A stretch of DNA of 64,000 nucleotides, from contig JANXBU010000002.1 in assembly GCA_025060505.1 (NCBI GenBank), forward strand, positions 124,001 through 188,000, given 5' to 3'. Shown in pieces: positions 11,913-51,521 of this stretch. The notes beneath the pieces were generated by a model. The model searched no databases, was not told the DNA's origin, and saw only the letters and a program-made list of their open reading frames with translations. A program made the translations under genes and the position numbers. How positions within the stretch are numbered: position 1 is the stretch's first letter; each line of letters opens with the position of its first letter. The DNA is from Candidatus Calescibacterium sp. GTDB taxonomy: Bacteria > Calescibacteriota > Calescibacteriia > Calescibacteriales > Calescibacteriaceae.

Positions 11913-12038
11913 ATCCTATCTATCTGGGCATTTGATCGATATTGATTGAATTTATGAAATTGTGGTGATGTCTTAGAAATTTTTGAATTGTTTATTTTTA
12001 AAGGTAGCTTTTTAAATCTTTTTTATTTGGTTAGCTAG

Positions 12039-13978: not shown

Positions 13979-14127
13979 GAGTGTAAGAGCAAATAGATTT
14001 AGATTAACATTCAAGTGTCACAAGATGTAAATTCCTAATCATTCTCAAAGGTAAAAGATTATGTAATTCAAATAAACATTAAAATAAAAACAATATTACA
14101 ATCGGTTCATTATAAAAACATCAGAAA

Positions 14128-14137
14128 AAAGGAGGGA
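14128..14137 (+). promoter_or_regulatory. Shine-Dalgarno AAAGGAGGGA
   Basis: A strong Shine-Dalgarno lies 5 nt before the ATG at 14143. A TATAAA at about 14111-14116 gives a plausible -10 box, so this monocistronic lipoprotein gene has a real leader, unlike most of its neighbours. Confidence 0.7.
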
Positions 14138-14142
14138 AATAA

Positions 14143-14478
14143 ATGAAAAAAATATTTATATCCCTTTTTATACTCATTTCAGCGGCTATCTTATCCTTTA
14201 ACTTACCTGGATGCGGCGGAGGAGAAGAAAGTAATCCATGTAAAGAGTTAGGAGAAAAGATAAATCAGTGCCTCAACGATGCTTGCAAAGGGAAGTCTAA
14301 CTGTGATCTTTGCAAATGTGTTCTTGATCCAAAAGCACCAGAATGTACAGCAGGCGGAACGGGTGGTACCCCTTCTGGTGGCGGATGCGAAGGAGAAGTG
14401 AAAAAACAAGCAGAAGAGGGACTCAAAAACTTCAATTGTTCAAATTATACAGAGGCTATCAAGATAGCATGTCCATAG
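14143..14478 (+). CDS. Small cysteine-rich lipoprotein
   Basis: This 111-residue protein has a signal peptide ending in the lipobox LPGC (Cys24), followed by Gly-Gly-Gly. The mature part holds about eleven further cysteines (CKELGEKINQC, CKGKSNCDLCKC and others), then a Gly/Thr/Ser-rich linker and a second small Cys-containing helix. Similar short Cys-rich lipoproteins with no known function are common in Myxococcota-like genomes. Disulfide-rich, exported and membrane-anchored is what can be supported; no function is assigned. Confidence 0.75.
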   Translation: MKKIFISLFILISAAILSFNLPGCGGGEESNPCKELGEKINQCLNDACKGKSNCDLCKCVLDPKAPECTAGGTGGTPSGGGCEGEVKKQAEEGLKNFNCSNYTEAIKIACP

Positions 14479-14777
14479 ATAATTGAGAAAATTATTAAAA
14501 CTACACATTCGCAACAATGATAAACCTCTAGTATCAAGTTTCATAAACATACCTTTGCTCATAATACTCATTATTATAGCAGAGTAGTCAAAAGCAACTT
14601 TCTACTCTGTTGTGATCACGAGATTCCTGAATGCTTCAACTCAATAATTCTTCCTCAGCATCGTTTCTACGACAAAGCAACGGATTTCAAATGAAGCAAG
14701 AAAAAATCAACCAATAGTTCTTACCAGCAAAAACTACAAATCTGATAAAATATAAGAAAAATCAGAAAATTATAGGA
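14479..14777. other. 299-bp intergenic region with a hairpin
   Basis: No ORF with a credible start is seen. The only structure is the inverted repeat at 14580-14609. The stretch before the next gene is A-rich. Confidence 0.5.
14580..14609. other. Perfect 8-bp inverted repeat (RNA hairpin candidate)
   Basis: CAGAGTAG (14580-14587) and CTACTCTG (14602-14609) are perfectly complementary across a 14-nt loop; one G-U and one A-U pair extend the stem. No U-tract follows, so it is not a standard intrinsic terminator. It could be a processed 3' end, a protein site or part of a small RNA. Confidence 0.45.
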
Positions 14778-15347
14778 GTGAAGAGAATATTCCTGATAGT
14801 CGGTATATCTTTGCTACTTCTATCTGTTTTTTTCGTTGTTTCAGGAACAAGAGAAATAAAGTATAGCTTCATAGAAATAGAAAAAGGTAGCATTTCTGAA
14901 AGAGTATATGCTGAGAAATCGAAGTTGGTTGGAGATATAGTCTATGCTCAAAACACTATACTATCGTTTGATAGCAATAAACTTGGAAAAATTGAAATTG
15001 AGGCTCAAAAGTCTGTGTATAATCTCAGAAGCGGAATAATAGAAATCAGCGGAAATATAAAACTGAAAGCACGAGATCTGTATGCAGAAACAGACAAAGC
15101 TAAAATCTTCGTTGAAGACAAAACAGTAAAGAAAATAGAAGGATATGGTAATGTAAAAGTTCAAACCAATGGAAGAACAATAAAGTCAGAAAAAGCTGAA
15201 ATATTTCCACAAGAGAAAATGATAATTTTTACAGGAAATCCTGTGATTCAGCAAAAGGGATTACAGATACAGGGGAAAACCATAAAAATCTTTCTTGATT
15301 CAGACATAGTTGAAGTTGATGAAACAAAGGCTAGAATGGAAAAGTAA
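14778..15347 (+). CDS. LPS transport protein, LptC/LptA-like (OstA fold)
   Basis: The 189-residue protein starts at a GTG (14778) and has an N-terminal membrane anchor (residues 3-24). Repeated short beta strands follow: IIEISGNIKLKARDLYAETD, KIEGYGNVKVQT, IKSEKAEIFPQEKMIIFTGNPVI and LQIQGKTIKI. This jellyroll pattern (GN-K, AE, ekm-I-F-TGNP-I, G-TI) is that of LptA; the uncleaved-looking anchor is that of LptC. It would form part of the periplasmic bridge for lipopolysaccharide. No lptB is adjacent. A separate LptE-like gene is at 28607. Confidence 0.75.
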   Translation: MKRIFLIVGISLLLLSVFFVVSGTREIKYSFIEIEKGSISERVYAEKSKLVGDIVYAQNTILSFDSNKLGKIEIEAQKSVYNLRSGIIEISGNIKLKARDLYAETDKAKIFVEDKTVKKIEGYGNVKVQTNGRTIKSEKAEIFPQEKMIIFTGNPVIQQKGLQIQGKTIKIFLDSDIVEVDETKARMEK

Positions 15348-15468
15348 AAGCCAAAATAGATTCCTGCATAGAAAGATACTCCTAAACATAGGCTTGAAAA
15401 TTGATGCGATATGAATCCTCATCAGAGATTACAATAACTCAAAAGTGCAAAACCAACAATATTCTCCC

Positions 15469-15497
15469 TTGAAATACAATCAATCTCTTTGTATAAT
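15469..15497 (+). promoter_or_regulatory. Consensus sigma-70 promoter of a leaderless gene
   Basis: TTGAAA (15469-15474), a 17-bp spacer and TATAAT (15492-15497) form a near-ideal sigma-70 promoter. The GTG start codon lies 8 nt beyond the -10 box, where transcription would begin, so the mRNA should start at or within a base or two of the start codon. Confidence 0.8.
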
Positions 15498-15505
15498 TAA
15501 ATGAT

Positions 15506-15880
15506 GTGTCAAAAGGGGAAAACAAAAATAAAAAGATCACAAAGAACAAAAAAACAAAAATCGGAATAAAAATACCTAAAATTTTTCTTCCTTTATCTAT
15601 AATTTCATACATGCTTTCTGTTTATTTTTTGCTCTCAGATAATGGGATATTTAAGTATATAAAGCAGAGAAAACAAATAGAGCAGATACAAAGCGAAATT
15701 GAATCTGTAAAAAAGAGAATAAATGAGATAGAAGAGAGAAAGATGCTTATAAAATCTGAAAACAAAGAGTATCTTGAAAATGTTTTCAGAAGATTTGGTT
15801 GGGTAAAAGAAGGAGAGAGAATAATAAAGGCTAACACAGAGTTAGAAGACGGAGTAACGGAAGCCAAAACACAGGACTAA
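15506..15880 (+). CDS. FtsB/DivIC-like septum protein
   Basis: This 124-residue protein has a Lys-rich cytoplasmic N-terminus (1-25), one membrane segment (about 27-46), and a coiled coil (about 50-85, KQRKQIEQIQSEIESVKKRI). It ends with RRFGWVKEGERII, which corresponds to the FtsB/DivIC tail where a tyrosine or tryptophan precedes a GE motif. These bitopic proteins join FtsL and FtsQ in the divisome. The start codon is GTG placed exactly where the upstream consensus promoter would initiate. The gene is followed 15 bp later by a convergent GT9 gene. Confidence 0.7.
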   Translation: MSKGENKNKKITKNKKTKIGIKIPKIFLPLSIISYMLSVYFLLSDNGIFKYIKQRKQIEQIQSEIESVKKRINEIEERKMLIKSENKEYLENVFRRFGWVKEGERIIKANTELEDGVTEAKTQD

Positions 15881-34878: not shown

Positions 34879-37800
34879 TCACATCTTAAACCTAAATTTT
34901 CTCTTCTTTTTTCTCAGATATACAAAGAGTAGAGCTACTGGGATAAGTGATACCAGAGCTGCTGCGGAGGAACATCCATAGTTCTGCTTTTGTTCTTTTT
35001 CTGATATCTTACTTTCTTCTGTTTCTTTTTCAACAAAAGATGGAGCAGGAGAGTAAGTTTTTCTTTTGAATACAACAACACACCCGTTTTCATGTATCAT
35101 AAGTACATCGGTAAATCCATCTGATGTAAAGTCTGCAACTTCTATACGCGGACTTGAGTTTGAACCTATAAAACCAGAGTTCGTTACAGATGAAAAGTAC
35201 GAGGAACCAGAGGCTGGGAATTGATTATCAGAGTATGAAATTCTCAAGTTAAAATGTGTGATTTTGAGAGGATAGCTCCTATAACCTGTATAAAGGTAAT
35301 CAGGTGTTGCATCGTTGTTGAGTTCTGCGATCTTGAACTCTATGCCGTTGAGCGGACTCCCAATAGTAGCATTTGTAGTTGTAAATAAATAAAAGGTTAT
35401 TGAGTTTCCGGAGGAATTGTTTATGTAAAGATCTAAGAAAAAGTTCGTGGATTGAGATACATAAGTTAGATCAGATCTATAAACAACTATGTCAATTTTC
35501 CCATCTGAGTTGAAGTCTCCAGATTCTATTCTATGTGGATATGTTACAGGAATGGTTGCAGATGTGTCAAATCCATTTCCGGTATTTCTAGCAATGTATA
35601 AATAGTTGTAATCGCTGTTCACTCCGACTATATCTGGCTTTCCATCTGAGTCTATGTCTTCTATAACTGCATCTGGGGTCCAACCTGATGATACTGCTCC
35701 AAGGGAAACGAAGTTTGGAAAGCTTGTACCATTTCCATAAGAGTAATAGGAAGGCCCAGAGCATCCCACGAACACATCCTTTACACCGTCAGAATTGAAG
35801 TCAGATGACATAATCTTGAATGAATAGCAGTCCGGAGGTAGGGGAGATGTAGATTTCAATAAGAAGTTTATGGATGATGAAGAGGTGTTTTCATAGAGAA
35901 TTAATGGCACATTAGAGAAATGTAAACATGTTACAACTATATCTGGTTTTGAATCTCCTGTGAAGTTATCAACAGCAAAAATTGGTATACATTGTGTCAG
36001 GTATGATGAAAAGAAAGTAGATGATACAGAGAACGTGCCAGCTCCTGAACCTGTAAGTATTGCAAGGTATCCAGATGCTCCAAGTCCAACAACTATGTCT
36101 TGTTTTCCGTCGTTGTTGAAGTCTCCTATTGCAAAGTCGTTATCATTGTATACCAGAGGTATCGCACAGCTTGAAATTGGTGTGAAGAAGTCTGCTGAAT
36201 GGAATTGTCTTGTTATGCTTATTGTTGTGGTCGCTACTCCATAGTTTCCGCATGAGTTTACTGCTTTGACTCTTACTGTTTTTGTTGAATAAAATGTATA
36301 GTTTGTGGATGGAGATGTTGAGACAGCATCTATTATTCCGTTGTTGTCAAAGTCCCACTGGTACTGAGATATTGTGAATGACGAGTAGGCATTTGCTGTG
36401 AGCGTTACGGTAAGCGGGGCTGGTCCGGAGGATGGGTTTGCAGTAAGAGAGACAGTTGGAATATCGCATTGAGGTTGTGCTGTCACTATTATTGTCAAGT
36501 TTCTTGTATCACTTGCTTCTTCGTCATCGTAAACGGTAACAGAGGCGGAAAATGTTCCCGCTGTTGTATATGTGTGTGTTGCAGAGACTGATAAGGTCTC
36601 CGAATCTATAACTCTTTGAAATCCGTCTCCAAACGTAAACACATATCTTTTTATTTTGTAGTTATCTGTTACGCTAGCTGAAAAGTTCACCGAAAGCGGG
36701 ACAGAACCGAATGTTGTAGATGCTACAAATGATGTTATTGTAGGGGACGTATTTCTGACGTATATGTTTGTGTAAGTTGAGGAGCTTCCGTATCTGTTTA
36801 TGGCTGTGGCTTGAGCTACAATAATACCAGACCTTGTGTATGTGTGCTGTGCTCTTGGTATTTGAGAAATAAACGCTGTACCATCTCCGAGATCCCATCT
36901 GAGAGATTCGAAGTTCTGAGCGTTCAGATTAAAATCAACTTGCAGAGGTTTTATTCCTTCTGTGGAGGACGCTGAAAAAGAAATTATTTTGGGTGGTTCC
37001 CCTATATCCACCGTTATGCTGTCTTGAGCTGTTATGTTATCCTCACTTCTTGCTTCGGCGGTGATTTTGAATACTCTGGGCGAAGAAAATGCTCTCTGAA
37101 CGAAAGTCAAACTGTTTGTTACCTTCTGTGAACCATCTCCGAAGTCCCATGTTATGCTTTCTGCGTTTGTTGTTTCTACTTGAAATGTTATTACTTCTCC
37201 TACCAAAGCTATTCTTTTGCTTGCATATATTTTTACATATGGAGTTTTGGGAATATTTTTGATCCTTATGGTTTTCGTTTTGTAATCGCATTTCCAGTTC
37301 TCATCGCACACATTGAAGTAGATATCGATGTTTTTATCTTGTTTTACATCAAAAGATATGCTGGGGGTGTTTGAGAAAATATTCACTGTGTTGTATTCAA
37401 TGCTCTGGTCATAATCAACAAATGTGGAGAACCGAAGCTCTTCCCAATCTGAGTCTGGATCGGTCGCCGAAAGTCTCAGAGAATATGTCTTTCCTTCTTC
37501 AAATTCATCCGGAACATACTCAAGCACAAGTTTTGGAGCTATGCTTCTGATATATACATATCCGCACCTGGAAACTTGGTTTTCCTCATCTGAAACTTGC
37601 GCACATATGTATGAATTCTTTTTTATTCTGTATGTTATGCTTTTTCCTTCTCCTATTGGATTACCGTCTGCAAACCATCTGTAATTCAAACTTGCACTAT
37701 CTTGATCTTCTGCGTTTACATCAAGCCTTATAAGTTCATTCTTGTTTGCCTCGGATGGAGATGAAAATGTAGTTATACGAGGAGCAAGATTGAGTACAAT

Positions 37801-40755
37801 GTTTCCTAAATCGATATCAGTGGAATCGCCAAGCTGAACATCTAATTTTTTTCCATTGATGTAAATCTTGCAGGATTGTATTTTGGTTGTTAGGTATAAC
37901 TCAAAATTTCCGTTATTATCGGTAGTTGTGTAAACATTTTTTCCGCATTCACTTAGTATGTAAGCTTGAGTAATTGGTTGGTTTCTTTTGTTCAGAACTC
38001 TGCCCTTTATTTTGTAAGATTTCAGATCAAGTTTCACCCTGCCTATATATCTTGAAGGATTTTTTCTCACGCTTTCTTCAACATAGAACCATAATTCATC
38101 TTTATGTGCGGTTGAATTCAGAGTTGGAGAACCAACGTTCCCCCAGTTTATTCCTATGTCAGAGATAATGTTTGCTGGTGTTCCATCTATTAGAATTTTA
38201 GATCTTGTTTCTCCGCCTCTTTTTTCAAGGGGAATATCTGTGTATGCGAATACAGAGCTTTTTCGGGTGTCGAATTTCTTATTTGCCAGCTGATCCGTTT
38301 CTGTGCAGTAGAATCCAGTTAAATTCTCCGAGAATGTTTTGTTCTCACACTTCATAACTTTGTTTGAATTTTCACATATATATCCTTGATCTATCTCCTG
38401 ACACCTTACTGACCACCTTAATATGATTTCATTACCTCCAAGAAGTATCTTATCCATCAGATTTGTGAGGGCGATAACTGATGATACAAGGTCTGCAAAT
38501 ACTTTGATCGGATTTTCTTCTCCTTGTTTAGTTTTAGTTCTTGGTGCCCGTGGTTCTTCTTTTGGTTTGAAGTATGCACATTCTCTTTTCAAAAGGTGAT
38601 TACATTTTTCATAAAATTCTGGTGAGTTTTTTTTGAGTTCTCTTAGAAATTCATTGTAATTTTTCAAGAAGTTATCAAAATGAGGTTGAACTGTTTCATA
38701 AGCCTTTGCAGATTTCCACTCTCCATGTTCTCCCCAAGCTTGAATTGCCTGACCTGCTAAGGTTGCAAGAGCTTCAGCTGCAAAGAGCACTGAACCTGCA
38801 CTTGAATTGAGTCCGACATTTTTACCTTTGATTGAGAGGAAGCATATGTCAAGACCAACTCCCGGTGAAGCTTTGCCAATACATTCCAAAAATTTATCGT
38901 TTCCCAGGACATTCATAATATTTCCAGCTGCGAATTCAATCAGAGTTGAGGCATCTGCTTCACCTTTTGCTATACTACTTCCAAGATCATACAAGGATTT
39001 GCCGAAATCCAAAAGAAACTGTCCTCCAAATTGTTCGCATCCTGATATTCCATTTAATTTGGAGATTAAAAATTCTGTACCTTTCTTCATAATGTCCAAT
39101 CCACATCCGACTAGTGTATCTAGTATAAATTTTTTAGCTTCCTCGCCAATCTGATCCCATCTTTCATAGAATATCTGGTCTGCTGATGCTCTTCCGATTG
39201 GTTCCAGGGCTTTCATCGCATCTCTTATCTTATCGTTTGCTTTACCGAATTCTCCCTTTGACAGGTCGTTTTGTGCCCCATCTAGCATCTTCTTTATGTT
39301 GTTATACATAGCGTCATCTATAAGCTTTTGTTGCTTGATTTTGTCAAGGGCGATCTCTATAGATGCAATATCTGCTACAAAAGGTAGGGCACCAGCGTAT
39401 GCAAGCAAGTCCTTGCATATCTGCTCCGTAGTGATAGAATTTTTCAAACCTTCAAAACAATCGCTACCTCCTCCTCGTGGATTTTCAGGATCACTTTTCT
39501 TAACATCAACACAAAATTTGCCATTGGCATCTGTGTATGTCCCCTTCCAGTCACCAAGACCCCCGTATGTGTTTCCCTGAGTAGTTATGTGTAGTCCTGA
39601 TATTCCTTTTCCTTGTGAATCAACAATCTGACCACATATGGAGGAGTGAGTTGTTATAGGGTAGTCAACGTTCCATTCAGAAAAGTGATTAACATTCGCT
39701 TTGATATACAATGGGATTTTTGCTCTTCCGGAGACTATTTGAGCAAGCTGGCGTGGTGTCAATGCGTTATCGCTCTCATCAACTATTATACCGAGTTCCT
39801 CCCCAGGTAGCCAAACGCCGGTTCTATCATCAAAGTACCACATGGGTGCTTCTACTTTGTCTGTTGTTTCCTCAACGTAGTCGTACAGTGTGTGAATTGC
39901 CGAGTCTGGTATTTTCATTTTGATTGTAGCGCTTTGATTTTCTGTTTTTGTTCTGACTTTTCGCGGAGCCAAGGTTTTGATTTCTTCACCTTCTTCATTC
40001 CGCATTTGTACAGATATAAATCCAGCAGAAGAGAGCATGATCGGCCTTTCGGAGTAAGCAAGGAAATTTCCAGGCATAAGATCTGGATCAGATATCGGAT
40101 CAACCCAGGAAACACTTGCACTTATAGATTCAGACGGGGGTATGAGTTCCGGTGGTATGTTTATGTCAACCAGTATTTCGGAACCCTCAGACTTCAATTT
40201 GAGCTTTTCTCCTTTTGAGAGACCAGAAATAAGCCTTGGAGCTCCTGCTGGACCTTTTACAAGCGAGAACTGAACACCATCTTTTGTGTTCTTATCAACT
40301 GCTGAATATGCTTTTGCAATTTTGAAGTTGCTGATGTATGTTGCATTGTTCGGCTCAATAACAACAGAGTTTCTCACAAAACCTTCCTTTTCTACTGAGA
40401 CCTGTACCCTTGCTGTTAGAATCCTACCGGTTACAACACGAGCTGTGACAATTCTTGCTGTGAGTATAAAATGCCCGTTTTTGTCTGTCATTGTTGCGAA
40501 AGATTCATCTGGTGAAAGTAATCCATCTTGGTTTGCATCTATTCTCGCTGTAACAAGTGCGTTTTCTACTGGATTTCCTGTATCATCTATAACAACACCA
40601 CCAACAGTTAACTCCTGTGGTATCTGCTGTTCCTGAACAGTTTGATTTTTTTTGCATCCACTGCATCCACCAGAACAATCTGAGAACAAAAAAGAGATCG
40701 ACAACAATGCCAATATATTCCAGATTTTTCCCCCAAGAACTTTCCCCTTTTTCAT
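34879..40755 (-). CDS. Giant surface lipoprotein with PKD domains and FG-GAP repeats
   Basis: The 1958-residue protein begins with a signal peptide and Cys-rich lipobox-like region (DCSGGCSGC; Asp at -1 of the first Cys is unusual). Then come carboxypeptidase-regulatory-like beta domains (about 48-125 and 370-420), a long helical region (about 430-800), and four or more PKD-type beta domains (WDFGDG near 1200, WDLGDG near 1288, FTFGDG near 1378, WDFDNNG near 1468). Seven FG-GAP/VCBS-like repeats follow (about 1540-1885), each with a D-x-[ND]-x-D-G-type calcium loop such as DFNNDGKQD, enough for a seven-bladed propeller. The end is YGCSS, a membrane helix and RKKKRK: a Cys-type C-terminal sorting signal. 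It is probably a cell-surface adhesin or sensor. Confidence 0.85.
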   Translation of the reverse strand: MKKGKVLGGKIWNILALLSISFLFSDCSGGCSGCKKNQTVQEQQIPQELTVGGVVIDDTGNPVENALVTARIDANQDGLLSPDESFATMTDKNGHFILTARIVTARVVTGRILTARVQVSVEKEGFVRNSVVIEPNNATYISNFKIAKAYSAVDKNTKDGVQFSLVKGPAGAPRLISGLSKGEKLKLKSEGSEILVDINIPPELIPPSESISASVSWVDPISDPDLMPGNFLAYSERPIMLSSAGFISVQMRNEEGEEIKTLAPRKVRTKTENQSATIKMKIPDSAIHTLYDYVEETTDKVEAPMWYFDDRTGVWLPGEELGIIVDESDNALTPRQLAQIVSGRAKIPLYIKANVNHFSEWNVDYPITTHSSICGQIVDSQGKGISGLHITTQGNTYGGLGDWKGTYTDANGKFCVDVKKSDPENPRGGGSDCFEGLKNSITTEQICKDLLAYAGALPFVADIASIEIALDKIKQQKLIDDAMYNNIKKMLDGAQNDLSKGEFGKANDKIRDAMKALEPIGRASADQIFYERWDQIGEEAKKFILDTLVGCGLDIMKKGTEFLISKLNGISGCEQFGGQFLLDFGKSLYDLGSSIAKGEADASTLIEFAAGNIMNVLGNDKFLECIGKASPGVGLDICFLSIKGKNVGLNSSAGSVLFAAEALATLAGQAIQAWGEHGEWKSAKAYETVQPHFDNFLKNYNEFLRELKKNSPEFYEKCNHLLKRECAYFKPKEEPRAPRTKTKQGEENPIKVFADLVSSVIALTNLMDKILLGGNEIILRWSVRCQEIDQGYICENSNKVMKCENKTFSENLTGFYCTETDQLANKKFDTRKSSVFAYTDIPLEKRGGETRSKILIDGTPANIISDIGINWGNVGSPTLNSTAHKDELWFYVEESVRKNPSRYIGRVKLDLKSYKIKGRVLNKRNQPITQAYILSECGKNVYTTTDNNGNFELYLTTKIQSCKIYINGKKLDVQLGDSTDIDLGNIVLNLAPRITTFSSPSEANKNELIRLDVNAEDQDSASLNYRWFADGNPIGEGKSITYRIKKNSYICAQVSDEENQVSRCGYVYIRSIAPKLVLEYVPDEFEEGKTYSLRLSATDPDSDWEELRFSTFVDYDQSIEYNTVNIFSNTPSISFDVKQDKNIDIYFNVCDENWKCDYKTKTIRIKNIPKTPYVKIYASKRIALVGEVITFQVETTNAESITWDFGDGSQKVTNSLTFVQRAFSSPRVFKITAEARSEDNITAQDSITVDIGEPPKIISFSASSTEGIKPLQVDFNLNAQNFESLRWDLGDGTAFISQIPRAQHTYTRSGIIVAQATAINRYGSSSTYTNIYVRNTSPTITSFVASTTFGSVPLSVNFSASVTDNYKIKRYVFTFGDGFQRVIDSETLSVSATHTYTTAGTFSASVTVYDDEEASDTRNLTIIVTAQPQCDIPTVSLTANPSSGPAPLTVTLTANAYSSFTISQYQWDFDNNGIIDAVSTSPSTNYTFYSTKTVRVKAVNSCGNYGVATTTISITRQFHSADFFTPISSCAIPLVYNDNDFAIGDFNNDGKQDIVVGLGASGYLAILTGSGAGTFSVSSTFFSSYLTQCIPIFAVDNFTGDSKPDIVVTCLHFSNVPLILYENTSSSSINFLLKSTSPLPPDCYSFKIMSSDFNSDGVKDVFVGCSGPSYYSYGNGTSFPNFVSLGAVSSGWTPDAVIEDIDSDGKPDIVGVNSDYNYLYIARNTGNGFDTSATIPVTYPHRIESGDFNSDGKIDIVVYRSDLTYVSQSTNFFLDLYINNSSGNSITFYLFTTTNATIGSPLNGIEFKIAELNNDATPDYLYTGYRSYPLKITHFNLRISYSDNQFPASGSSYFSSVTNSGFIGSNSSPRIEVADFTSDGFTDVLMIHENGCVVVFKRKTYSPAPSFVEKETEESKISEKEQKQNYGCSSAAALVSLIPVALLFVYLRKKKRKFRFKM
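40405..40464 (-). repeat. Four tandem pentapeptide codon units (x-T-A-R-x)
   Basis: Inside the 1958-residue surface protein, 60 bases encode LTARI-VTARV-VTGRI-LTARV, four 15-bp units within a beta domain near residue 98-117. It looks like a slippage-type expansion of a strand. Confidence 0.6.
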
Positions 40756-41117: not shown

Positions 41118-44100
41118 ATGTTGGCTTCTAAAAAGAAATTAGGGATTCTCTCTTTAGCGATTCTACTTTCATATTTTATGATAAAAGGAGATAATAATAA
41201 TGAAGGTTATCTCACTATAAATACTCATTATACAGCAAATTTCTCAGCTGATTTTGATTATGTCAATGAAAGATGGCTTGTTGTTTATGAGAAAAACGAT
41301 AAAATTTATGGGAGATTTGTTTCTTTGAACAAAACATTTTTTACAGGAGAATTTGAGTTAAGTAATTTAGGATGTTCTGCTACTGAAAAATGTTTTGATC
41401 CGAATATAAAATTTGGCTGTGATGGTGGAACCTGTAAATTTCTTATAGCTTATGTTCGTGGAAGTAAAGTCTACTACAACATGCTTGATGATGATGATGG
41501 GAACTCGCTGTTTACCAATCCTATGACTGTAAGCCCATTACCTTCAACATATCCTTCTGTTGAATTTGATTATATAAACAAGAGATTTTTCGTTGTTTTT
41601 AGTGAGGAAATTACGCAAGATAATTCTGATGTCAGCGGAATTTTGGTTAACTTCTCAGATGGTCTGACCTTCGGTAGTAAAATCTCTATATCAAGTGCAT
41701 TCAGGAATCAGATAAAACCTTCCGTTGCGTTTTCAGAATCTCTGTCTTACATAGTTGTGTGGCAGGATCATAGAGCAGATGATAGAGGAGACATATACTA
41801 TCAGTTTATATCAAAGGATGGGCAGAGGATAGGGGAAAACAGCGGTGTTGGACTCTTTCCATCAAGGCATGAGGTAAATCCATATGTCTTTTGGCTGCCA
41901 TCTATAAATAGGTTTGTTGTTCTATATAAGACAAGTATAGTTTTCGTTAAGCCAGGTGAGAGCGAGGAATGCCCCATAATAGCTGGAAATATAACTTGTA
42001 CGGAAGGGAACTATGTTTATTCCTTCATAGATTCAAGCGGTAGAGTTTCGTTTCCAGTAAGGATACTCCCAAACGCAAATATATCCTCCGAGACTGAGCA
42101 CTATGCTAGAATGGGAACCAACTATATTATATTTGCTGGAGATGCTTACTACTCTATGGACAAAAGGAAGCATTTTGCAATTATGAGATTTGATACAACT
42201 ACACCAAAATATATTCTTTCAAATCCAACATTCTGGTTCCCAAACTACTATAGAGTAAAAGTAGGACTTGTTTCAATTTCTGAGCCTTTGCCCGACGAAC
42301 CTTTCTGTCCACCAATAAGAGAACATCCAAATGATTCGTTGATAACTATTGAACCGTCTTCATTTACACTTGAGGAGAAAAGAACAAAAACTCGTTTTCC
42401 TGTTCTGTTCCCAAGAGGTATGTATCCGGGCGATCACTCTGCTAAAATATTTGTATCTGCAACAACCTACCCAGGAATAAACACTGCTCTTGTTATTTTT
42501 GGAGTTTCATTTACGGAAAACTTGAGCTTGGTGACAATAGATACAGATCCTGTTATGTTTGATTATGAATATTTAAGTCAAACATCTTTACCAGTTGCAG
42601 TCACAAACACCTGTTATATATCTTATGGTCAGCCACCTTGCCCAGGTTGTCCGTGTACTGGAGAATATCAAATAAAGGTAACGGGCGGAAAACCTCCATA
42701 CACTTTTCAGGCAGTTGCAGGTCAGATGCCACCTGGACTTACGGTCAATTATCAGGGAACCATTACCGGTTTTGTTCTTCCACCTGATATAGGTTCGGTG
42801 TGTGAAACATATCCTTGTCCATTTACTTTTTCGGTTTTAGTTTCAGACAGCTCAAATCCTAAAAAGTCATCCTGTATGACCTTTGATACTTTGCTTTTTC
42901 CTTCTCCAGAGGTGAGATTGAGTTACCCAGAACAAATATCATTTTGTACAAAGGCAACTGAGTCGAAATCAGATAACATATTCATACAAAATTTGGGAAC
43001 CCCGGTTACGATACAGATTCTTGAACCGAAAATGATTTCTTTTGGAGATTCTGCTACATGCTCAACGGTGACTTTATCTACGTTTCCATTTATGTGCAGT
43101 CCAGCTGGATCTTCAATTGCTCCGTTCTATTTAGAAATATATTCACAGCAGACTACTGTAGGTAATGGGTGTACTTCAACTTCCTGTCCCTGGGGAAAGA
43201 CCTGTGACTGCAGGCAGTTCAAATATGAACTTTATCCTGGACATTCAATTTCTGGAAAGATTCATTTTTCTTCTAATTTTTATGGAGAATATACTACCAA
43301 GATAACTTTCCATGTAGTAGATTCTGTTTTGGGATATTCTGAAAGCCATACAATAAATGTTAAAGCCTTCACAATAGCTCAAGATTTGTTCGTTACATCA
43401 GATATGCCTATTTCTCCTTCTGGTTGTACGAATTATACCTCTGTTTGTACTACCTACAACATAGATCTGGGTAATATGTATGTTGGGCAGAGTACAAGCT
43501 TTTACATTTACCTGGGGAACGCTGTCACTTCTGCTTCTAATCTTGGATGTTCAGGAGATGTTTACCTTGAAGTTTTGACTGTTTTTGCTTCGCCTAATCA
43601 AAGTTTCAGTATTTTGAGTCCCCCACCTTCTGAGTTTGGAACAATAGGTCCTGTTTCTATACCGAGCAACTCTACTCGGCCTATAGCTATTCAGGTTTCT
43701 GGAGTATCAGCAGGTTCCATAACTTACCCTATAATAATATACTCAGATGACCCTGATGAAAGAAGAGTTGTTGTTGTTGTTAGAGCATACTTTAATCCTG
43801 TTAGTTTCAATGTTCCAAGCATTGTAGATTGTGGTATAAACTTGAGAGGATATCCACCGCTTCCATGTTATATAGAGATTCAGAATCAGTCCCCAGTTTC
43901 TGTGCCTGTAAACAGTATTGGTATATCTGGTTCAAGTCAATTTTATGTTACAGGTACTACTAGTTTCGAGGTACCTCCGTTTTCCACCTATATGTTACAG
44001 GTTTCTTTTGGATCTTCAGCTACTGGGGTTCACTTCGGAGTTCTTACTCTTTACATGAATTCGGCTCCTTTCTTTGTTTCTGTTGGTTTGAGGGGGCAGG

Positions 44101-47100
44101 TGATTGATAAGGATGATCTTTTGAAAATTGAACCGAGTTCTCTTGATTTTGGAAATGTTATAACAGGTGCTAGTATAGCATCGGGTATTAGGTTCATAAA
44201 TATGTCTCTTTATGATTTATATGTTTCTCCAATTTATATTGATTCTCCTTTTAGTTTTCCAAGTGCTTCATCTGTGTATATTCCGGCTGGACAGGAAAAA
44301 AGTATAGCTGTGAATTTTGTACCAACATCTGCTGGCACATTCACATCAGCTGCGCTGTTTACGGTATCAACGAGTAGATTTTCCTATATTCTAACATATC
44401 CTGTATCTGGAACTGGGGTTCTTCCACCAGCTGTTTTGAGGGTTCCGAGTTCTGTGAATTGTGGAACCTACTTGATATCTTCTGCTCACCTACAGTGCTA
44501 TATTGAGATTCAGAACACCTCATCTGTACCATCAGCCATTCACGGTATTAATATATCTGGTTCTGATGCATTTTATTTGACAGGCAGTACAAGCTTTACT
44601 ATATCGCCGTATTACACATATTCTTTGGTGGTTTCTTTTGGATCTTCTGTTGCTGGGATTCACTCTGGAAACCTTGTAATTCACTCAAACTCTATAACAC
44701 CGGTAATTTCGGTTAATCTTTTGGGTCGAGCGGTGGATAGGATTGTTAGAGTTGAACCAGAGGTTCTTGATTTTGGTACAGCTGTCACAGGTGCTGAGAT
44801 AAGGTCAAATTTCAAGATTATAAATATGACGGATCAGATAGTTTATGTTATTCCAAGTTATATAGATGTCCCATTCAGTTTTGCAGATCCGTCTTCGCGT
44901 GTTATACATCCATCAAAAGATATAAACTTTGCTATTGATTTTAAGCCGTTGTCTGCTGGTACATTCACATCGGCTGCGCGGTTTACGGTATCAACGGGTG
45001 GATTTTCTTATACTCTAACATACCCTGTATCTGGAACAGCTGTAACTCCGGAGTCTGTTGGTCTAAAAGCTTCTTTAAGAATGATACCAAACTATATAAA
45101 TTTTGGAGATGTTATTATTTGTTCTCCTGTGAGGTGTCCAGTTTCTATAAGATCTCTTAATATAATAAACACTGGAAATGTTCCCATCAATCTCGTTTCA
45201 TTTTCTCATCCTTCAAATGTAAGCAACTATTCAATAACTACACCATTGAGTATAACGGATTTTTATGTTACAGATTTTGTTGCCCGTGCTCTGAACACAG
45301 GAGGAGCTGTTGGAAACATAGTCTTTAACTTTTCATCAACTGCTGGTTCTTTTTCAGCAGTTGTGACATTCTACATCAATGGTGTATCGCCAGCCATTTC
45401 TGTTTCACCAGATAGCATAAGCTTTGGAGCAGTCAAAGTTGGAGAAGAAAGCATATTCATGCTCTCGGTTTCAAATACTGGTAACTATAAACTCACAGTT
45501 ACGAACATCTCTATAGGTCAGCCATTTTTCTCAGATGTTCCTGTTCCATTTGAGATTCAGGCTGGCGAGAGCAGAAGAATTCCGATTTCGTTCAGACCAC
45601 GCGAGGTCTCTTCTTACGAGACATATATCAGAATATATTCAGATGCACCATATTCTGAGGTATTGACTGTTCAGATCAGTGGAAGAGGAGAAGAGAATCC
45701 ACTACCTGTTGCAGATGTTTCTCCAAAATCAATAGATTTTGGAAAGGTAAGGATGGGTCAAACAAGATCGGAGGTTTTCACAATAAGGAATTTAGGAACA
45801 AGCAAGCTTTTCGTTTCAAGTATATCTTCGTTGGCTCAGGAATTTGTACTGAAACTCGATCAGATTTTGCCACTTGCTATTGACTCAAATAATTCTGTAA
45901 CGTTTGTTATAACATTTTCTCCTTCTGATGAAAAAGTCTTCGATTCGTTTGTTGTTTTGAAGACCAACGATGCAAATAAACCTGAGATAAGAATTTCTGT
46001 CAAGGGTGAGGGAGCAAATCCACATATTCGTGTTCCATCTGAAGTGAATTTCGGTGGTGTAAGAAGAGGAAAAACAGTAAAGAAAGAATTTCCAATAGAA
46101 AATACCGGAAACCTCCCACTACAAGCTGAAATATCTATAACTAAGGATGATGAATTCGTTTTTATATCTGACTATATAGGAGAGGTTACAGAAAAATTTT
46201 CTATAACGATACCAGAAAAATCATCCTCTAAACTTGACATATACTTCACTCCACCGGGTTTGGAAAAATATAGGGCGACAATAACTATAAAGTCAGATGA
46301 TCCTTTATATCCTTTCATAGAGGTTCCGGTTTCCGGTGAGGGTGGATTTCCGGTTTTAAGTATGAATGTGAATGAGATAGATTTTGGGGAAATTTACATT
46401 GATGAAAGAAAAGAGTATGAAGTTAGTGTTAGTAATCTTGGAAGCGCACCGCTTGAAGTTACTTTTTATGTTAATGACCAGGTCTTTGGTGTATCTGTTT
46501 CATCGTTTGTTGTTCCATCACGGGAAGTATACAATGTGAAATTTATCTTTGCTCCAAATGGAAAAGAGGGAGTATTTTCTTCTCCGGTTAAGGTCATCAC
46601 AGATGATCCTAAGAACTCGGAGTTAGAGATAACACTTAAGGGTAGAGCAAAAAGATTTTCTTATATTCCAATTGGTAGTGGCTGTTCTTGTTCATCTGCT
46701 TCTCCGTTTTCTCTTGATATGTTTTTGATTTTGATTTCCGTTCTGTTTTTCTTCGTTCGTTCGGGACTACTAAAAAAACTAATCAGACTTTTTGTTTTTA
46801 CTTTGATTTTTTGTTTTCTGATTTTCTCTCATAGGGCATATTCACAAGATATAAGTTTGAACATAAATAATTTCTATCCTTATCAGGATATATCGAATTT
46901 TTCGTTTTTGAGAACAGCGCATTTTCGTCCTAAGAGAACCTTGGGTTGGGGTGGTTTTTTGTCTTTTGCAAAAGATCCTCTTATGCTCAAAGTTGCAAAA
47001 GGTGAGCAATCTATATCAAAGCAAACAATAGTTAATTACTCAATATATTCCGGTGTTGTTTTATCTTATGTTCCTGTTGAGAAGCTTGAGGTGGGAACTT

Positions 47101-49121
47101 TTCTGCCTGTAAGTATTGTTGGTGGAGTAAAAAATCAGTTTAGTTTGTCTGATATTTTTCTTGAAGCCAAGTATCTAGTTTTCAGTGAAAAAGACCTTTT
47201 TTCTCTTTCTTTGAATCCGCAGATAGGTATTCCGACTTTTGGAGGGGATTTTGCAAGCAACCGCTCAATCTCTCCAAGATTAGGCTTTATAATTTCAAGA
47301 GAAACAAAGCTGGGAGATTTTTTGCTAAACACATCTGGAAACATAGGTTTTGAATACAGATCAGAAAGAGCTGTTGCTGATTTGAATGTTGGTTCTCAGA
47401 CTTATTTTATGCTTGGTGGATCTTTGAGTTTCAGACAAATAAATTTTTCATTTGAAACTATATCTTTCATATCCCTTGAAGAAGTGAGGAAAGAAACAAT
47501 ACCAGCTGAGGCTTTAATTTCTGTGGGAGGAGAGTTTTCCGATCTGAAAGTGAGAATCGGTGGCGGAGGAGGTTTGACACAGGGAATAGGCTCTCCAAAA
47601 TATAGGCTCTTTGTTATTTTTACATATGATCTGCAACCATCTGTTCCACCAATAAAGTATATGAGAGTGGAGGGTCGGGTTCTTGATAACCTTGGGAGAG
47701 AAGTTCAAAAAGGGGTAGTTTATGTTCAGGAGTCCGGTGTCTCCTCGCAGATAAAGGACGGAAAATTCGAAATGGAACTCCCAGATGGTAGATGGACCTT
47801 TAAAGTCGTATCTCCGGGATATGAAACAAAAATTCAGTCGTTTTTAATACCTGATCAGAAACCAGAGATAAATGTAAGGAAGCTTGACCCACAAATAGTT
47901 ATAGCTCCAACAGATAGGTTTGGAATATCTCAAACCATTGAGCTTAACATCAAAACACCGGAAGGCGTTATAAAAACATCATCAGATATTGCAGCTATAT
48001 CTACATCTGGAAATATAGATATTCAGACCAAAGATATTAGTAGATCTGTTGTTTTACCGCCAGATGAGATTATATGGATCAACCTTATACATCGTCAGAC
48101 CGTTGAAACAAATAAGGAGCAGCAAGCCCAACCACAGCAACAAGAAACAAAACAAAGAGGAAAGCAAGATATAACAGCCAAGAAAGGAAGAACCAAAGAG
48201 ACTCAGCAGCAAAGATCAGCGCAACCTCAAAGAGCCGGAGCTCAACCAGAGAATCTAGCTCAAAAAAGAGATTTGGAAAAAACAGAAAAATTACCAGAAA
48301 CTCAGCTTGAAACTACCGAAACAACTGTTAAAGATAATGAACAGCAAAGAAGCTCGGAGGAATCGGTGTTATCACAAAAACCTTCTGATAAACCAAAGGA
48401 AAAAACTACCGAGATACCTTCTGTGGAAAGAATTGTTGGTGAGAAGGGAAAAATAACCGAGAAAATTCCGTCAAGACCATCAAAACCTTCAGAGGAAGTC
48501 TCTGAGAGGGGAAAAACCGAAGTTTTTGAGCCAAAGATTCAAACACAGGAAAAAATTGTGACAAAAGAGCATATATCAAAGGAGCAAGGAAAAAATATTG
48601 AAAGAGAACGAAAGAATATTTACACAGAACAGATAGGTGAAGAACAAAAAATTGAAGAGCAAAGAACTTCTGTTGTATCTCTTCCAAAAAAAGAAGAGAT
48701 CAAAAAAGAAGAAACAGCGGTTATACCTTTTAAATTTGAAGAAAAAAAAGAACTTGAATCAAAGTTGAGCTTGCTTATATCTAAGGTTTTCGATAGTTTC
48801 ACTGTAAACAGATGGGATATACCTAAATCTGCTTACGATGATCTTGATAAGGTAGCACAGATAATACTTGAAAATAAAGACAGAATATCTTCAATTCGGA
48901 TTGAAGGACATACAGATATAACTGGTCCGGAGTACTGGAATGTTGAGCTATCTTATCTCAGAGCAAATGAAATACGAAGGTATCTTTACAAAAAGGGAGT
49001 GAAAATTCCAATAGAGATAATAGGCTATAGCTATATGAGACCTATTGACACAAATGAAACAGAAGAAGGAAGAAGAAAGAACAGAAGGACGGAAGTCAAA
49101 GTGTTCTCAGAAGGTGAATAG
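41118..49121 (+). CDS. Apparent polyprotein: ASH/HYDIN-repeat surface protein fused to OmpA-family protein
   Basis: A single open frame of 2667 residues from ATG 41118 (an upstream TTG at 41100 is less likely). Part one: signal peptide (1-25), a beta-propeller-like region (about 30-390), Ig-like domains (about 475-600), and many ASH/HYDIN (choice-of-anchor D) beta domains (about 890-1840, with repeated [LI]DFG..[VI]..G). Residues 1850-1885 read GSGCSCSS, a membrane helix, RSGLLKK: a complete Cys-type sorting tail. Immediately afterwards a second signal peptide (LIRLFVFTLIFCFLIFSHRAYS) precedes a barrel-like domain (about 1910-2170), a regulatory beta domain, a Q/E/K-rich linker (2330-2547) and an OmpA peptidoglycan-binding domain (EGHTDITG...RANEIRRYL, NRRTEV). 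Two mature proteins are expected if the junction is processed. Confidence 0.85.
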   Translation: MLASKKKLGILSLAILLSYFMIKGDNNNEGYLTINTHYTANFSADFDYVNERWLVVYEKNDKIYGRFVSLNKTFFTGEFELSNLGCSATEKCFDPNIKFGCDGGTCKFLIAYVRGSKVYYNMLDDDDGNSLFTNPMTVSPLPSTYPSVEFDYINKRFFVVFSEEITQDNSDVSGILVNFSDGLTFGSKISISSAFRNQIKPSVAFSESLSYIVVWQDHRADDRGDIYYQFISKDGQRIGENSGVGLFPSRHEVNPYVFWLPSINRFVVLYKTSIVFVKPGESEECPIIAGNITCTEGNYVYSFIDSSGRVSFPVRILPNANISSETEHYARMGTNYIIFAGDAYYSMDKRKHFAIMRFDTTTPKYILSNPTFWFPNYYRVKVGLVSISEPLPDEPFCPPIREHPNDSLITIEPSSFTLEEKRTKTRFPVLFPRGMYPGDHSAKIFVSATTYPGINTALVIFGVSFTENLSLVTIDTDPVMFDYEYLSQTSLPVAVTNTCYISYGQPPCPGCPCTGEYQIKVTGGKPPYTFQAVAGQMPPGLTVNYQGTITGFVLPPDIGSVCETYPCPFTFSVLVSDSSNPKKSSCMTFDTLLFPSPEVRLSYPEQISFCTKATESKSDNIFIQNLGTPVTIQILEPKMISFGDSATCSTVTLSTFPFMCSPAGSSIAPFYLEIYSQQTTVGNGCTSTSCPWGKTCDCRQFKYELYPGHSISGKIHFSSNFYGEYTTKITFHVVDSVLGYSESHTINVKAFTIAQDLFVTSDMPISPSGCTNYTSVCTTYNIDLGNMYVGQSTSFYIYLGNAVTSASNLGCSGDVYLEVLTVFASPNQSFSILSPPPSEFGTIGPVSIPSNSTRPIAIQVSGVSAGSITYPIIIYSDDPDERRVVVVVRAYFNPVSFNVPSIVDCGINLRGYPPLPCYIEIQNQSPVSVPVNSIGISGSSQFYVTGTTSFEVPPFSTYMLQVSFGSSATGVHFGVLTLYMNSAPFFVSVGLRGQVIDKDDLLKIEPSSLDFGNVITGASIASGIRFINMSLYDLYVSPIYIDSPFSFPSASSVYIPAGQEKSIAVNFVPTSAGTFTSAALFTVSTSRFSYILTYPVSGTGVLPPAVLRVPSSVNCGTYLISSAHLQCYIEIQNTSSVPSAIHGINISGSDAFYLTGSTSFTISPYYTYSLVVSFGSSVAGIHSGNLVIHSNSITPVISVNLLGRAVDRIVRVEPEVLDFGTAVTGAEIRSNFKIINMTDQIVYVIPSYIDVPFSFADPSSRVIHPSKDINFAIDFKPLSAGTFTSAARFTVSTGGFSYTLTYPVSGTAVTPESVGLKASLRMIPNYINFGDVIICSPVRCPVSIRSLNIINTGNVPINLVSFSHPSNVSNYSITTPLSITDFYVTDFVARALNTGGAVGNIVFNFSSTAGSFSAVVTFYINGVSPAISVSPDSISFGAVKVGEESIFMLSVSNTGNYKLTVTNISIGQPFFSDVPVPFEIQAGESRRIPISFRPREVSSYETYIRIYSDAPYSEVLTVQISGRGEENPLPVADVSPKSIDFGKVRMGQTRSEVFTIRNLGTSKLFVSSISSLAQEFVLKLDQILPLAIDSNNSVTFVITFSPSDEKVFDSFVVLKTNDANKPEIRISVKGEGANPHIRVPSEVNFGGVRRGKTVKKEFPIENTGNLPLQAEISITKDDEFVFISDYIGEVTEKFSITIPEKSSSKLDIYFTPPGLEKYRATITIKSDDPLYPFIEVPVSGEGGFPVLSMNVNEIDFGEIYIDERKEYEVSVSNLGSAPLEVTFYVNDQVFGVSVSSFVVPSREVYNVKFIFAPNGKEGVFSSPVKVITDDPKNSELEITLKGRAKRFSYIPIGSGCSCSSASPFSLDMFLILISVLFFFVRSGLLKKLIRLFVFTLIFCFLIFSHRAYSQDISLNINNFYPYQDISNFSFLRTAHFRPKRTLGWGGFLSFAKDPLMLKVAKGEQSISKQTIVNYSIYSGVVLSYVPVEKLEVGTFLPVSIVGGVKNQFSLSDIFLEAKYLVFSEKDLFSLSLNPQIGIPTFGGDFASNRSISPRLGFIISRETKLGDFLLNTSGNIGFEYRSERAVADLNVGSQTYFMLGGSLSFRQINFSFETISFISLEEVRKETIPAEALISVGGEFSDLKVRIGGGGGLTQGIGSPKYRLFVIFTYDLQPSVPPIKYMRVEGRVLDNLGREVQKGVVYVQESGVSSQIKDGKFEMELPDGRWTFKVVSPGYETKIQSFLIPDQKPEINVRKLDPQIVIAPTDRFGISQTIELNIKTPEGVIKTSSDIAAISTSGNIDIQTKDISRSVVLPPDEIIWINLIHRQTVETNKEQQAQPQQQETKQRGKQDITAKKGRTKETQQQRSAQPQRAGAQPENLAQKRDLEKTEKLPETQLETTETTVKDNEQQRSSEESVLSQKPSDKPKEKTTEIPSVERIVGEKGKITEKIPSRPSKPSEEVSERGKTEVFEPKIQTQEKIVTKEHISKEQGKNIERERKNIYTEQIGEEQKIEEQRTSVVSLPKKEEIKKEETAVIPFKFEEKKELESKLSLLISKVFDSFTVNRWDIPKSAYDDLDKVAQIILENKDRISSIRIEGHTDITGPEYWNVELSYLRANEIRRYLYKKGVKIPIEIIGYSYMRPIDTNETEEGRRKNRRTEVKVFSEGE
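43820..45045 (+). repeat. Intragenic 624-bp tandem duplication in ASH-domain region
   Basis: Two consecutive units of about 208 codons repeat an A-B pair of domains. Landmarks recur 624 bp apart: CTTGATTTT at 44142 and 44766, and GCTGG[CT]ACATTCACATC at 44331 and 44955. The last 90 bp of each unit are nearly identical at the DNA level, while the rest has diverged, which suggests an old duplication with recent local gene conversion. Confidence 0.8.
46681..46844 (+). other. Internal sorting tail plus second signal peptide (polyprotein junction)
   Basis: The codons encode Cys-x-Cys, a 17-residue hydrophobic helix, R-S-G-L-L-K-K, a second hydrophobic helix and H-R-A-Y-S before Gln. The first half is a C-terminal sorting signal; the second is an N-terminal signal peptide with a signal peptidase I site after 46844. 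The only in-frame ATG inside (46719) has no Shine-Dalgarno, so separate translation of the OmpA part is not obvious. Confidence 0.75.
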
Positions 49122-49427: not shown

Positions 49428-50261
49428 TTATGCTAATGATACTTTTTGAACTTCTCCTGATCTTATTTTCTGTATCCATTTTTCTTTTGGATGAAAAGGC
49501 AGACCTGATATATTGTTTTCTATCTCGGTGATACAAAAGTACAGAAAATCTCTTTCAGATATATCCTTATGTACGAATACTGTTTTATCTTGATCTCTAA
49601 TAAGTATTATGTCAAGGTCAATTGTTCTTGGAGAAAAATTTCCCTTCTCATTTCTTCCAAGTTCTTTTTCTATCTGGTATAATTTATCTTCAAGTTCATG
49701 TTTTTCAAGGAATGTTTCTGCTTTCACAACGCAGTTTATAAATTTGGGTAGTGAAAGGTCATATTCTCCATATTCATTTATTGCTGTTGTTGTATAAAGG
49801 TTTGAAACTTTTTCAACTCTGATCTCGCTTATTGATTTGAGTTTTTCTATTGCATTTTTTATATTCTCCTTTGGATTTATATTTGAGCCTACCGATATGA
49901 AGAAAGTTCTCCATTTCCTTTCCACACAAACCGATGTACTCCTGGCAAATCTTAGAGCTCCGGGTTTATCTACTTCAACTGAAACTCCGATCACACCAGC
50001 TTTCCTTATACATATCTCTGTAATATTGTACGCTATGGTTTCAATCAAGTACGGTGATGATTTTTCTACAAAATCAATAATTTCTTTTTTCAACTTTTTG
50101 TAATCAACTGTATTACTTATATCATCTGTTTTACCAGCTTTTTTCAGATCCAAAGTTAGTTCAGCATTTATGATTATGTCTTGTTTTTCTTTTCTTTCCC
50201 AATCGTTAATTCCAACTGTTGTTCTCAGAAGAAGGTCTTTTATCTTTATTTTATCTGGCAT
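49428..50261 (-). CDS. folBK: Bifunctional dihydroneopterin aldolase / HPPK
   Basis: The 277-residue protein fuses two folate enzymes. Residues 1-118 are FolB (KIKDLLLRTTVGINDWERKEKQDIIINAEL, NTVDYKKL, SPYLIETIAYNI), which cleaves dihydroneopterin. Residues 119-277 are FolK (FISVGSNINPKENI, VSNLYTT, FINCVVKAET, QIEKELGRNEK and SPRTIDLDIILI), which pyrophosphorylates the product. The start at 50261 is chosen because homology begins at MPDKIKIKDLL and TAGAAT (50269-50274, complement) ends 7 nt before it; the open frame extends to 50315 across the divergent sbcD start. The FolK C-terminus is somewhat diverged. Confidence 0.92.
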   Translation of the reverse strand: MPDKIKIKDLLLRTTVGINDWERKEKQDIIINAELTLDLKKAGKTDDISNTVDYKKLKKEIIDFVEKSSPYLIETIAYNITEICIRKAGVIGVSVEVDKPGALRFARSTSVCVERKWRTFFISVGSNINPKENIKNAIEKLKSISEIRVEKVSNLYTTTAINEYGEYDLSLPKFINCVVKAETFLEKHELEDKLYQIEKELGRNEKGNFSPRTIDLDIILIRDQDKTVFVHKDISERDFLYFCITEIENNISGLPFHPKEKWIQKIRSGEVQKVSLA

Positions 50262-50297
50262 ACCATTTATTCTAATTGAATTTTTTAATTTAGATCT
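50262..50297. promoter_or_regulatory. 36-bp divergent region with two back-to-back leaderless promoters
   Basis: Only 36 bp separate the start codons of folBK and sbcD. TAGAAT on the minus strand (50269-50274) ends 7 nt from the folBK ATG, and TTTAAT on the plus strand (50284-50289) ends 8 nt from the sbcD ATG. There is no room for leaders, and -35 elements would lie inside the opposite gene. Confidence 0.6.
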
Positions 50298-51521
50298 ATG
50301 ATAAAAATAGTTCATACATCAGATTGGCATGCCGGAAAATCAAATGGTAGGGAATCAAGAAGAGAAGATCTGCAGTACTCTCTGAATCAAATTGAGCAAT
50401 TCATAAAAGAGGAGAGAGTAGATTTTCTTCTGGTATGCGGAGATATTTTTGATAAACCATCTATATCTCCCCAAGATATGCTCATTATATGGAATTTCTT
50501 CATAAATATAAAGCAGTATGGAACAAAATCAATAGCGATCACGGGAAATCATGATTCAAAGGAATTTTTCAATAGTATGAAAAGTCTGCTGAAGCTAATT
50601 GATGTTTATGTTTTTGACAGAGTTTCTCCGGAAATCAAAAGCTCTTTTGTTGAGTTTGAAAAGGAGCAGGATGGTAAAATTTGTTTTTTTGCTTTTCCAT
50701 ATCTTAATCCAAACATTCCTGTTGATGTCTATGAAAAATTCAGTTCAAGCTCCTATTCGGAGAAATACACAGATTTTGTGGTGCGCTATCTTGAATTAGC
50801 TTCTGGTTATGCCCTAAATTTCTCTTGCCCGGTCATAATGCTTTCTCATATTGCAATATCAGAGGCTAAGATCTCCGGAACCGAGAAAGAAATAAGTGTC
50901 AGGCAAGATTTCTGCGTACCTCACGCAAGAGTACCGCAGAATTTTTTATACTATGCTCTTGGACATATACATAAGAATCAGAGAGTAAGCAATACAAAAA
51001 GGATGTATTACTCTGGAACTCTGTATCAGATTGATTTTGGAGAAGAAAAGGATGAAAACAAAGGATTTTATTTTTTCACTATCAAGGATGGAAAAATAGA
51101 TAAGGAGCCAGAGTTCCAAAGAGTTTCTCTTAAAAGAAAACTCAAGACCTATGATTTTGATTTAACTAATTCTAATGTTAATTCTATTGTTCAACAGCTT
51201 AGCAGCAGTAAAGATACTCTTAAAAGAATCTTCCTGTATTATAAACCAGAACAAAAGCATCTTATTCCTGAAATCGTATCAAAAATAAATAACTTGGAAG
51301 GAATAATTTCTATAAATTTTGATGAGATTGATAATAAAAACGAGATGCAGAAAGATATTGATTACTCTGAACTAAGTTACATGGATATAATCTCTCTCTA
51401 TGAAAAATTTTATTCCGAGGTAAAGGGTGGAGATTTGGATTTTTTCAGGAACAAAATACAACCAAGAATTATGAAACTAATAGAAGAATTTGAGAAAAGT
51501 CAAATGGTTGAGGGAGCGTAG
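50298..51521 (+). CDS. sbcD: DNA repair exonuclease SbcD/Mre11
   Basis: The 407-residue protein has the calcineurin-like nuclease motifs in order: VHTSDWHAGK (residues 4-13), LLVCGDIFDKPS, ITGNHDSKEF, MLSHIAI and YYALGHIHKNQ. A capping domain of about 150 residues follows. With SbcC/Rad50 it opens DNA hairpins and processes double-strand break ends. No sbcC gene follows; 162 bp without a gene precede nuoG, so the partner is encoded elsewhere. Promoter spacing suggests a leaderless message. Confidence 0.9.
   Translation: MIKIVHTSDWHAGKSNGRESRREDLQYSLNQIEQFIKEERVDFLLVCGDIFDKPSISPQDMLIIWNFFINIKQYGTKSIAITGNHDSKEFFNSMKSLLKLIDVYVFDRVSPEIKSSFVEFEKEQDGKICFFAFPYLNPNIPVDVYEKFSSSSYSEKYTDFVVRYLELASGYALNFSCPVIMLSHIAISEAKISGTEKEISVRQDFCVPHARVPQNFLYYALGHIHKNQRVSNTKRMYYSGTLYQIDFGEEKDENKGFYFFTIKDGKIDKEPEFQRVSLKRKLKTYDFDLTNSNVNSIVQQLSSSKDTLKRIFLYYKPEQKHLIPEIVSKINNLEGIISINFDEIDNKNEMQKDIDYSELSYMDIISLYEKFYSEVKGGDLDFFRNKIQPRIMKLIEEFEKSQMVEGA

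Follow-up and report, generated by a model that had tools for sequence, protein, structure and literature searches.

An internal cysteine tag and a second signal peptide between an ASH-repeat protein and a TraB-like barrel: a probable bacterial polyprotein

Viruses, and a handful of eukaryotic proteins, are the most familiar cases of proteins made as one chain and then split. In bacteria, the fbcH product of Bradyrhizobium, a cytochrome b/c1 precursor, is divided at a signal peptide inside the chain; TraB is known as the partner of the myxobacterial receptor TraA in outer membrane exchange. The traA and traB genes have a four-base overlap (PMC3325183) and in Myxococcus xanthus the two proteins were measured at a TraA:TraB ratio of 1:1 (0.98) (PMC12045341). 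In the same species the tag of TraA is cut by MrtX in a Cys-dependent manner, and proteins tagged with MYXO-CTERM are carried to the surface by the type II secretion system (T2SS) (PMC11980579).

The closest described protein is MXAN_5598 of M. xanthus, reported in 2025, in which an internal MYXO-CTERM separates a large adhesin part from an outer-membrane barrel with OmpA (PMC11980579). Its authors likened it to TraA plus TraB, proposed processing of the N-terminal part, and termed the protein atypical and internal tags rare (PMC11980579). MXAN_5598 has also been detected in the outer-membrane vesicles of M. xanthus (PMC4158809). The original prediction for the locus described here knew of no bacterial polyprotein built in this way. 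That statement has to be withdrawn, as the architecture is already known from MXAN_5598 (PMC11980579), where the cleavage is also a proposal. In our comparison a frame of 3001 aa located between ftsA and ftsZ in a 9 Mb genome (L102) fits the description of MXAN_5598, and its tag gives 18.6 bits to TIGR03901 (cut-off 20). The N-terminus of this protein (6586-15591, - strand) matches the model of the gliding protein AgmC with 391 bits against a cut-off of 275.

One frame, two exported halves

The window, that is the whole stretch of 64,000 nucleotides that was analysed, contains a single open frame of 2667 aa on the + strand (41118-49121) with no stop across its 2667 codons in the ORF and translation check. 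The frame starts with ATG at 41118, and a TTG upstream at 41100 is also possible. It opens with a basic and hydrophobic segment (41139-41186, +) that is a putative export signal of the first half. The first half contains ASH / choice-of-anchor-D Ig-like repeats, with weaker matches from about aa 1000 and the strongest at aa 1425-1850 (45390-46667, +; Pfam and NCBIfam). Here Pfam reports ASH, HYDIN and Cep192, and NF012200 of NCBIfam gives 216 bits in 8 stretches.

The second half was modelled with AlphaFold2 and shows a barrel that is followed by two beta-sandwiches of small size, then by a disordered linker and finally by OmpA. The barrel (46941-47633, +) has about 12 strands at residues 32-262 of the half, with pLDDT mostly 80-90. 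The beta-sandwich domains (47658-48089, +) are CarboxypepD_reg-like, under the Pfam cut-off. The linker (48099-48737, +) is rich in K, E and Q and of low confidence (pLDDT under 50), and is mainly responsible for the moderate quality of the whole model (mean pLDDT 63.7, pTM 0.40). The peptidoglycan-binding OmpA domain PF00691 occupies aa 2561-2656 (48798-49085, +; Pfam 2.7e-16). Pfam and NCBIfam thus place ASH repeats before the junction and OmpA after it, in agreement with the original prediction of two exported proteins in one precursor, whose single frame and whose description and coordinates of the junction were correct on translation and on the junction DNA.

For the second half, Foldseek ranks two outer-membrane channels, FapF and COG4313, highest among solved structures. 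A profile of this barrel picks up relatives in other phyla, including that of L102 at 1.3e-8, and hhalign aligns the phylum's barrels with those of the relatives over 251 columns (probability 99.3, E 6.8e-21). Among the relatives, the NCBIfam TraB model matches along the barrel in L112 (187.5 bits, model positions 2-499), L110 (89 bits) and L126 (53 bits). The window protein itself matches the curated TraB model (NF033763) only in its OmpA part, with 63.8 bits against a cut-off of 700, which rules it out as TraB proper; the term TraB-like therefore rests on a chain of profiles. Judged from these profiles, the second half shares homology with TraB-like barrels. The earlier description of the second half as an OmpA anchor was incomplete: the barrel is its conserved part, and the fused relatives L109, L110 and L126 stop after the barrel, without OmpA.

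As to the surroundings, a 1958-aa PKD/FG-GAP protein (34879-40755, -) is encoded divergently and carries YGCSS, a TM helix and RKKKRK at its true C-terminus, so that two genes for Cys-tagged surface proteins diverge from one common intergenic region. On the other side, at 49428-50315 (-), one protein has both FolB and FolK (HPPK) domains. Elsewhere in the window's genome (G000:C93) a 688-aa frame (L043 / L046) has repeats like the beta-sandwich part of the window protein, and relatives of 775-776 aa exist in G001, G003 and G004.

The junction and its proposed processing

The junction (nt 46674-46847) encodes GSGCSCSSASPFSLDMFLILISVLFFFVRSGLLKKLIRLFVFTLIFCFLIFSHRAYSQ. It starts with the sorting motif G-S-G-C (aa 1853-1856; 46674-46685, +) and continues with TM helix 1, LDMFLILISVLFFFV (46713-46757, +; hydropathy 2.76), and the basic loop RSGLLKKLIR (46758-46787, +; 4 K/R, no D/E), predicted to be cytoplasmic. 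TM helix 2 (46788-46844, +) has signal-peptide features and an AYS end, which bears out the predicted second signal peptide; the cut by signal peptidase I would lie before Q1910 (nt 46845, +).

We favour, with a probability of about 0.7, the reading that the product of the window gene is a precursor, cut at the inner membrane by signal peptidase I and a myxosortase-like protease to give a TraA/TraB-type pair. The chain would be exported by Sec, with TM helix 1 halting transfer and TM helix 2 restarting it, so that both halves would lie outside the inner membrane and the basic loop in the cytoplasm. Signal peptidase I would cut after AYS and send the barrel-OmpA half to the outer membrane and the peptidoglycan. 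By analogy with M. xanthus, a myxosortase-like CPBP protease would cut beside the Cys of GSGC, which is probably lipidated, and would free the ASH half, which type II secretion would place on the surface. The outcome would be equal numbers of an ASH surface protein held by a lipid anchor and of its wall-bound barrel partner, presumably paired 1:1 like TraA and TraB; the order of the cuts is equally an assumption. The matched 1:1 pair had been part of the original prediction, and gains plausibility by analogy from the TraB-like barrel and the ratio in M. xanthus (PMC12045341). Going by TraA/TraB, our guess is that the pair might serve adhesion or cell-cell contact.

The fusion is present in 5/5 genomes of the phylum that were compared, all from one family, with nine genes in all. 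Group A (long) comprises the window gene, L025, L026 and L027, and group B (a shorter paralogue) comprises L024, in the window's own genome, and L028-L031. The only group A gene missing is that of G004, where the copy of its usual downstream partner begins at a contig edge; the gene was therefore probably lost to an assembly gap. All nine genes have an uninterrupted junction, and no stand-alone barrel half was found in the five genomes, both of which argue for processing at two sites. The same layout in eight further genes, in five assemblies, in two paralogue groups and in other phyla leaves a practically negligible chance that an assembly or sequencing error joined two genes by deleting the stop and start that separate them, even though the assembly is a draft of 115 contigs. 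Such a loss was rejected; a stop or frameshift hidden at the junction would need to turn up again in each of five separate assemblies.

Directly 3' of the fused gene, on the same strand, 7/9 loci encode a further exported protein, conserved and about 250-270 aa long (L024 2252-3016, L028 2227-3036, L029 2235-2993 and L030 2297-3076 on the - strand; L047 13118-13993, L048 13623-14411 and L049 12764-13567 on the + strand). In the window's genome the copy that may belong to the window gene is unlinked (G000:C23:28574-29221). This protein has a lipobox-like Cys in several loci, no Pfam match and an all-beta predicted structure (pLDDT 85.7), and is a possible third partner of the pair.

Across the nine genes G1853, G1855 and C1856 are invariant, and the other eight proteins are 24-33% identical to that of the window. 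In 9/9 genes TM helix 1 is followed by a loop, which has 3-4 K/R and lacks D/E, and then by TM helix 2, which in each of them ends near small residues; the helices of the tag, unlike GxGC, vary. Within about 467 kb of the window's genome (303 frames of at least 200 aa) an internal G-x-G-C followed by TM and basic residues was found only in the window gene and its paralogue on contig C104, a restriction that is more than chance. The dN/dS of the junction is 0.13 for L025/L027 and 0.30 for L028/L030, without gaps and near the values of the flanking domains. By these ratios the junction is under purifying selection, and hence translated in frame. Both the invariant layout and the selection on it speak for the two cuts.

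The selection, with the in-frame translation that it shows, also speaks against the idea that an internal start codon yields the second half as well, or alone, like a translationally coupled operon. The overlap of traA and traB (PMC3325183), the separate adjacent genes among relatives, and TTG/GTG codons near the second helix in the window gene and some relatives are in its favour. Yet no in-frame ATG, GTG or TTG common to all nine was found at the second signal peptide, and L031 has no start codon between the Cys and the mature barrel, which supports cleavage of one chain. With no conserved start codon in the junction, an internal start was rejected as the main route, and the idea is very improbable.

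It is only slightly less improbable that the polypeptide stays uncut, its ASH part in the periplasm or on the surface and linked to the barrel part through a hairpin in the inner membrane. The one frame would agree with this, but a barrel folded in the outer membrane about 30 residues from an inner-membrane helix would be sterically hard, the two halves are known as separate genes and as TraA/TraB (PMC3325183), and the small residues at the end of the second helix are of the kind usual at signal peptidase sites.

Exactly one CPBP (Rce1-like) protease was found in each of the five genomes. Its best matches are myxosortases (97 bits to Mrt_core, cut-off 100, for the copy in the window's genome, G000:C38:28716-29012), and its EExxxR, H and HxxxN do not vary. 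Signal peptidase I is over its cut-off in 5/5 genomes, as is GspD of type II secretion, and this set of three supports the double processing. There is also one rhomboid per genome, which could be the cutter and to that extent weakens our reading; with 19.1 bits to rhombosortase (cut-off 84) it was set aside as a weak match and kept as a minor possibility. Free C-terminal Cys tags of the same form end the divergent neighbour and two other proteins of the window's genome, and they add, like the homology of the barrel to TraB-like barrels, to the case for two cuts. In G003 a 1472-aa ASH-repeat protein (L032 2488-6906, -) ends in a free-standing CSCSS tag with TM and basic tail.

The tag had been predicted to be of the MYXO-CTERM type. 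Its tripartite layout with the invariant Cys agrees with this, but none of the NCBIfam tag models, TIGR03901 included, matches the window tag, and the name MYXO-CTERM was dropped for it. This, the protease just under its family cut-off, and the Leu that a second cut at YS|Q would leave at -3 in L025/L027 all weaken the proposed processing. Cutting of MYXO-CTERM by the M. xanthus myxosortase and the same processing proposed for MXAN_5598 (PMC11980579) strengthen it, with the reservation that the cleavage of MXAN_5598 is itself a proposal. The missing model match would also suit a simpler arrangement in which signal peptidase I is the sole cutter, TM helix 1 anchors the first half for good and the Cys motif is no processing site, since TM helix 1 and the basic loop could equally be an ordinary stop-transfer anchor. 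The invariance of GxGC next to variable helices, the single myxosortase-like protease kept in five genomes and the free-standing tags of the same form speak against this arrangement, which we consider unlikely.

Fused and split forms in other phyla

The two halves as separate genes, for which a search among relatives had been suggested, occur among other relatives of the barrel; in the phylum's five genomes no stand-alone barrel half was found. TraB-like barrels are present in 174/195 genomes of a phylum (that of G032) which from its content looks like Myxococcota, and 99 of the best 150 barrel matches there sit in frames of at least 1000 aa. In all 28 such frames inspected, drawn heavily from one family (f29), the barrel is preceded by a GxGC tag with TM and basic residues and then by a second signal peptide. 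Outside these two phyla, fused forms were found as L112 and L158 (one phylum), and further as L126, L180/L181, L195, L190/L196 and L109. In L109 the internal tag is a CFI-box-CTERM (95.5 bits, cut-off 40). A motif of the C-x-L-N-P type, JDVT-like by eye only, occurs in L190 and L195, and in L190 / L196 (G291:C369) the TraB-like barrel lies behind a CTLNP-type tag in a frame of 8019 aa. L111/L171, L197 and L199 were rejected as fusions and counted as separate genes, their upstream parts looking like spurious frame extensions.

Barrels encoded alone, each with a signal peptide of its own, are common too. In 6/29 of those examined (L148, L152, L154, L162, L179 and L198) the adjoining upstream gene ends in a Cys tag, and in L162 the tagged gene and the barrel gene are separated by one TAA and 18 nt, in frame. 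Such separate genes directly after a Cys-tagged gene are consistent with a precursor that is cut twice.

In a tree of 73 barrels, made by a quick method, the phylum's nine fall in one clade (99 by that method), and the fusion there thus probably predates the split of groups A and B. The fused or split state needs 8 changes on this tree, with at least 3 changes forced by well-supported branches, and the tree gives no direction between fusion and splitting. On balance it seems probable that internal tags are a recurrent bacterial polyprotein format, with repeated fusion of TraB-like barrels to the C-terminal side of tagged surface proteins across several phyla, more than one kind of tag (MYXO-type GxGC, CFI-box, C-x-L-N-P type) and two membrane proteases releasing a matched pair of surface protein and anchor per chain.

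Comparison with known systems

What is new here is the spread across distant phyla, which, at the level of sequence, indicates that the format is recurrent and not rare. It suggests that TraA/TraB-like pairs exist far outside the myxobacteria, among others in an uncultured phylum that has members from hot springs. Should the cuts be real, bacteria would make a surface protein and its partner in the outer membrane as one chain and separate them at the inner membrane, which would fix their ratio and timing. The spread also offers a ready test set of fused halves against neighbouring genes, once a single stop codon apart.

Like MYXO-CTERM and the myxosortase system (TIGR03901, MrtX), the window gene has an invariant Cys motif, a TM helix and basic residues, and its genome has a CPBP-type protease and T2SS; unlike MYXO-CTERM (TIGR03901), its tag is internal, matches no model and belongs to another phylum. 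The first partner in fbcH is an inner-membrane cytochrome without a sorting tag, which also differs from the window gene.

With TraA/TraB (PMC3325183, PMC12045341) it shares a tagged surface protein with a barrel/OmpA partner. TraA and TraB are two adjacent genes whose products form 1:1 complexes, whereas here there is one gene and the pairing is presumed; the domains of TraA are a PA14-like one and Cys-rich repeats, and the first half in the window has ASH repeats.

The closest likeness is to MXAN_5598, which also has an adhesin region, an internal Cys tag with TM and basic residues, an outer-membrane barrel and OmpA in one frame; the window barrel is homologous, by profile, to that of L102, which is of this type. 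The first half of L102 consists of AgmC_N plus Ig-like / OmpL47-like repeats, unlike the ASH repeats of the window protein, its tag is Arg-rich and the linkers differ. The MXAN_5598 architecture has been described only in Myxococcota; the window version belongs to another phylum and has as its own features the ASH repeats, an unmodelled tag and extra beta-sandwiches.
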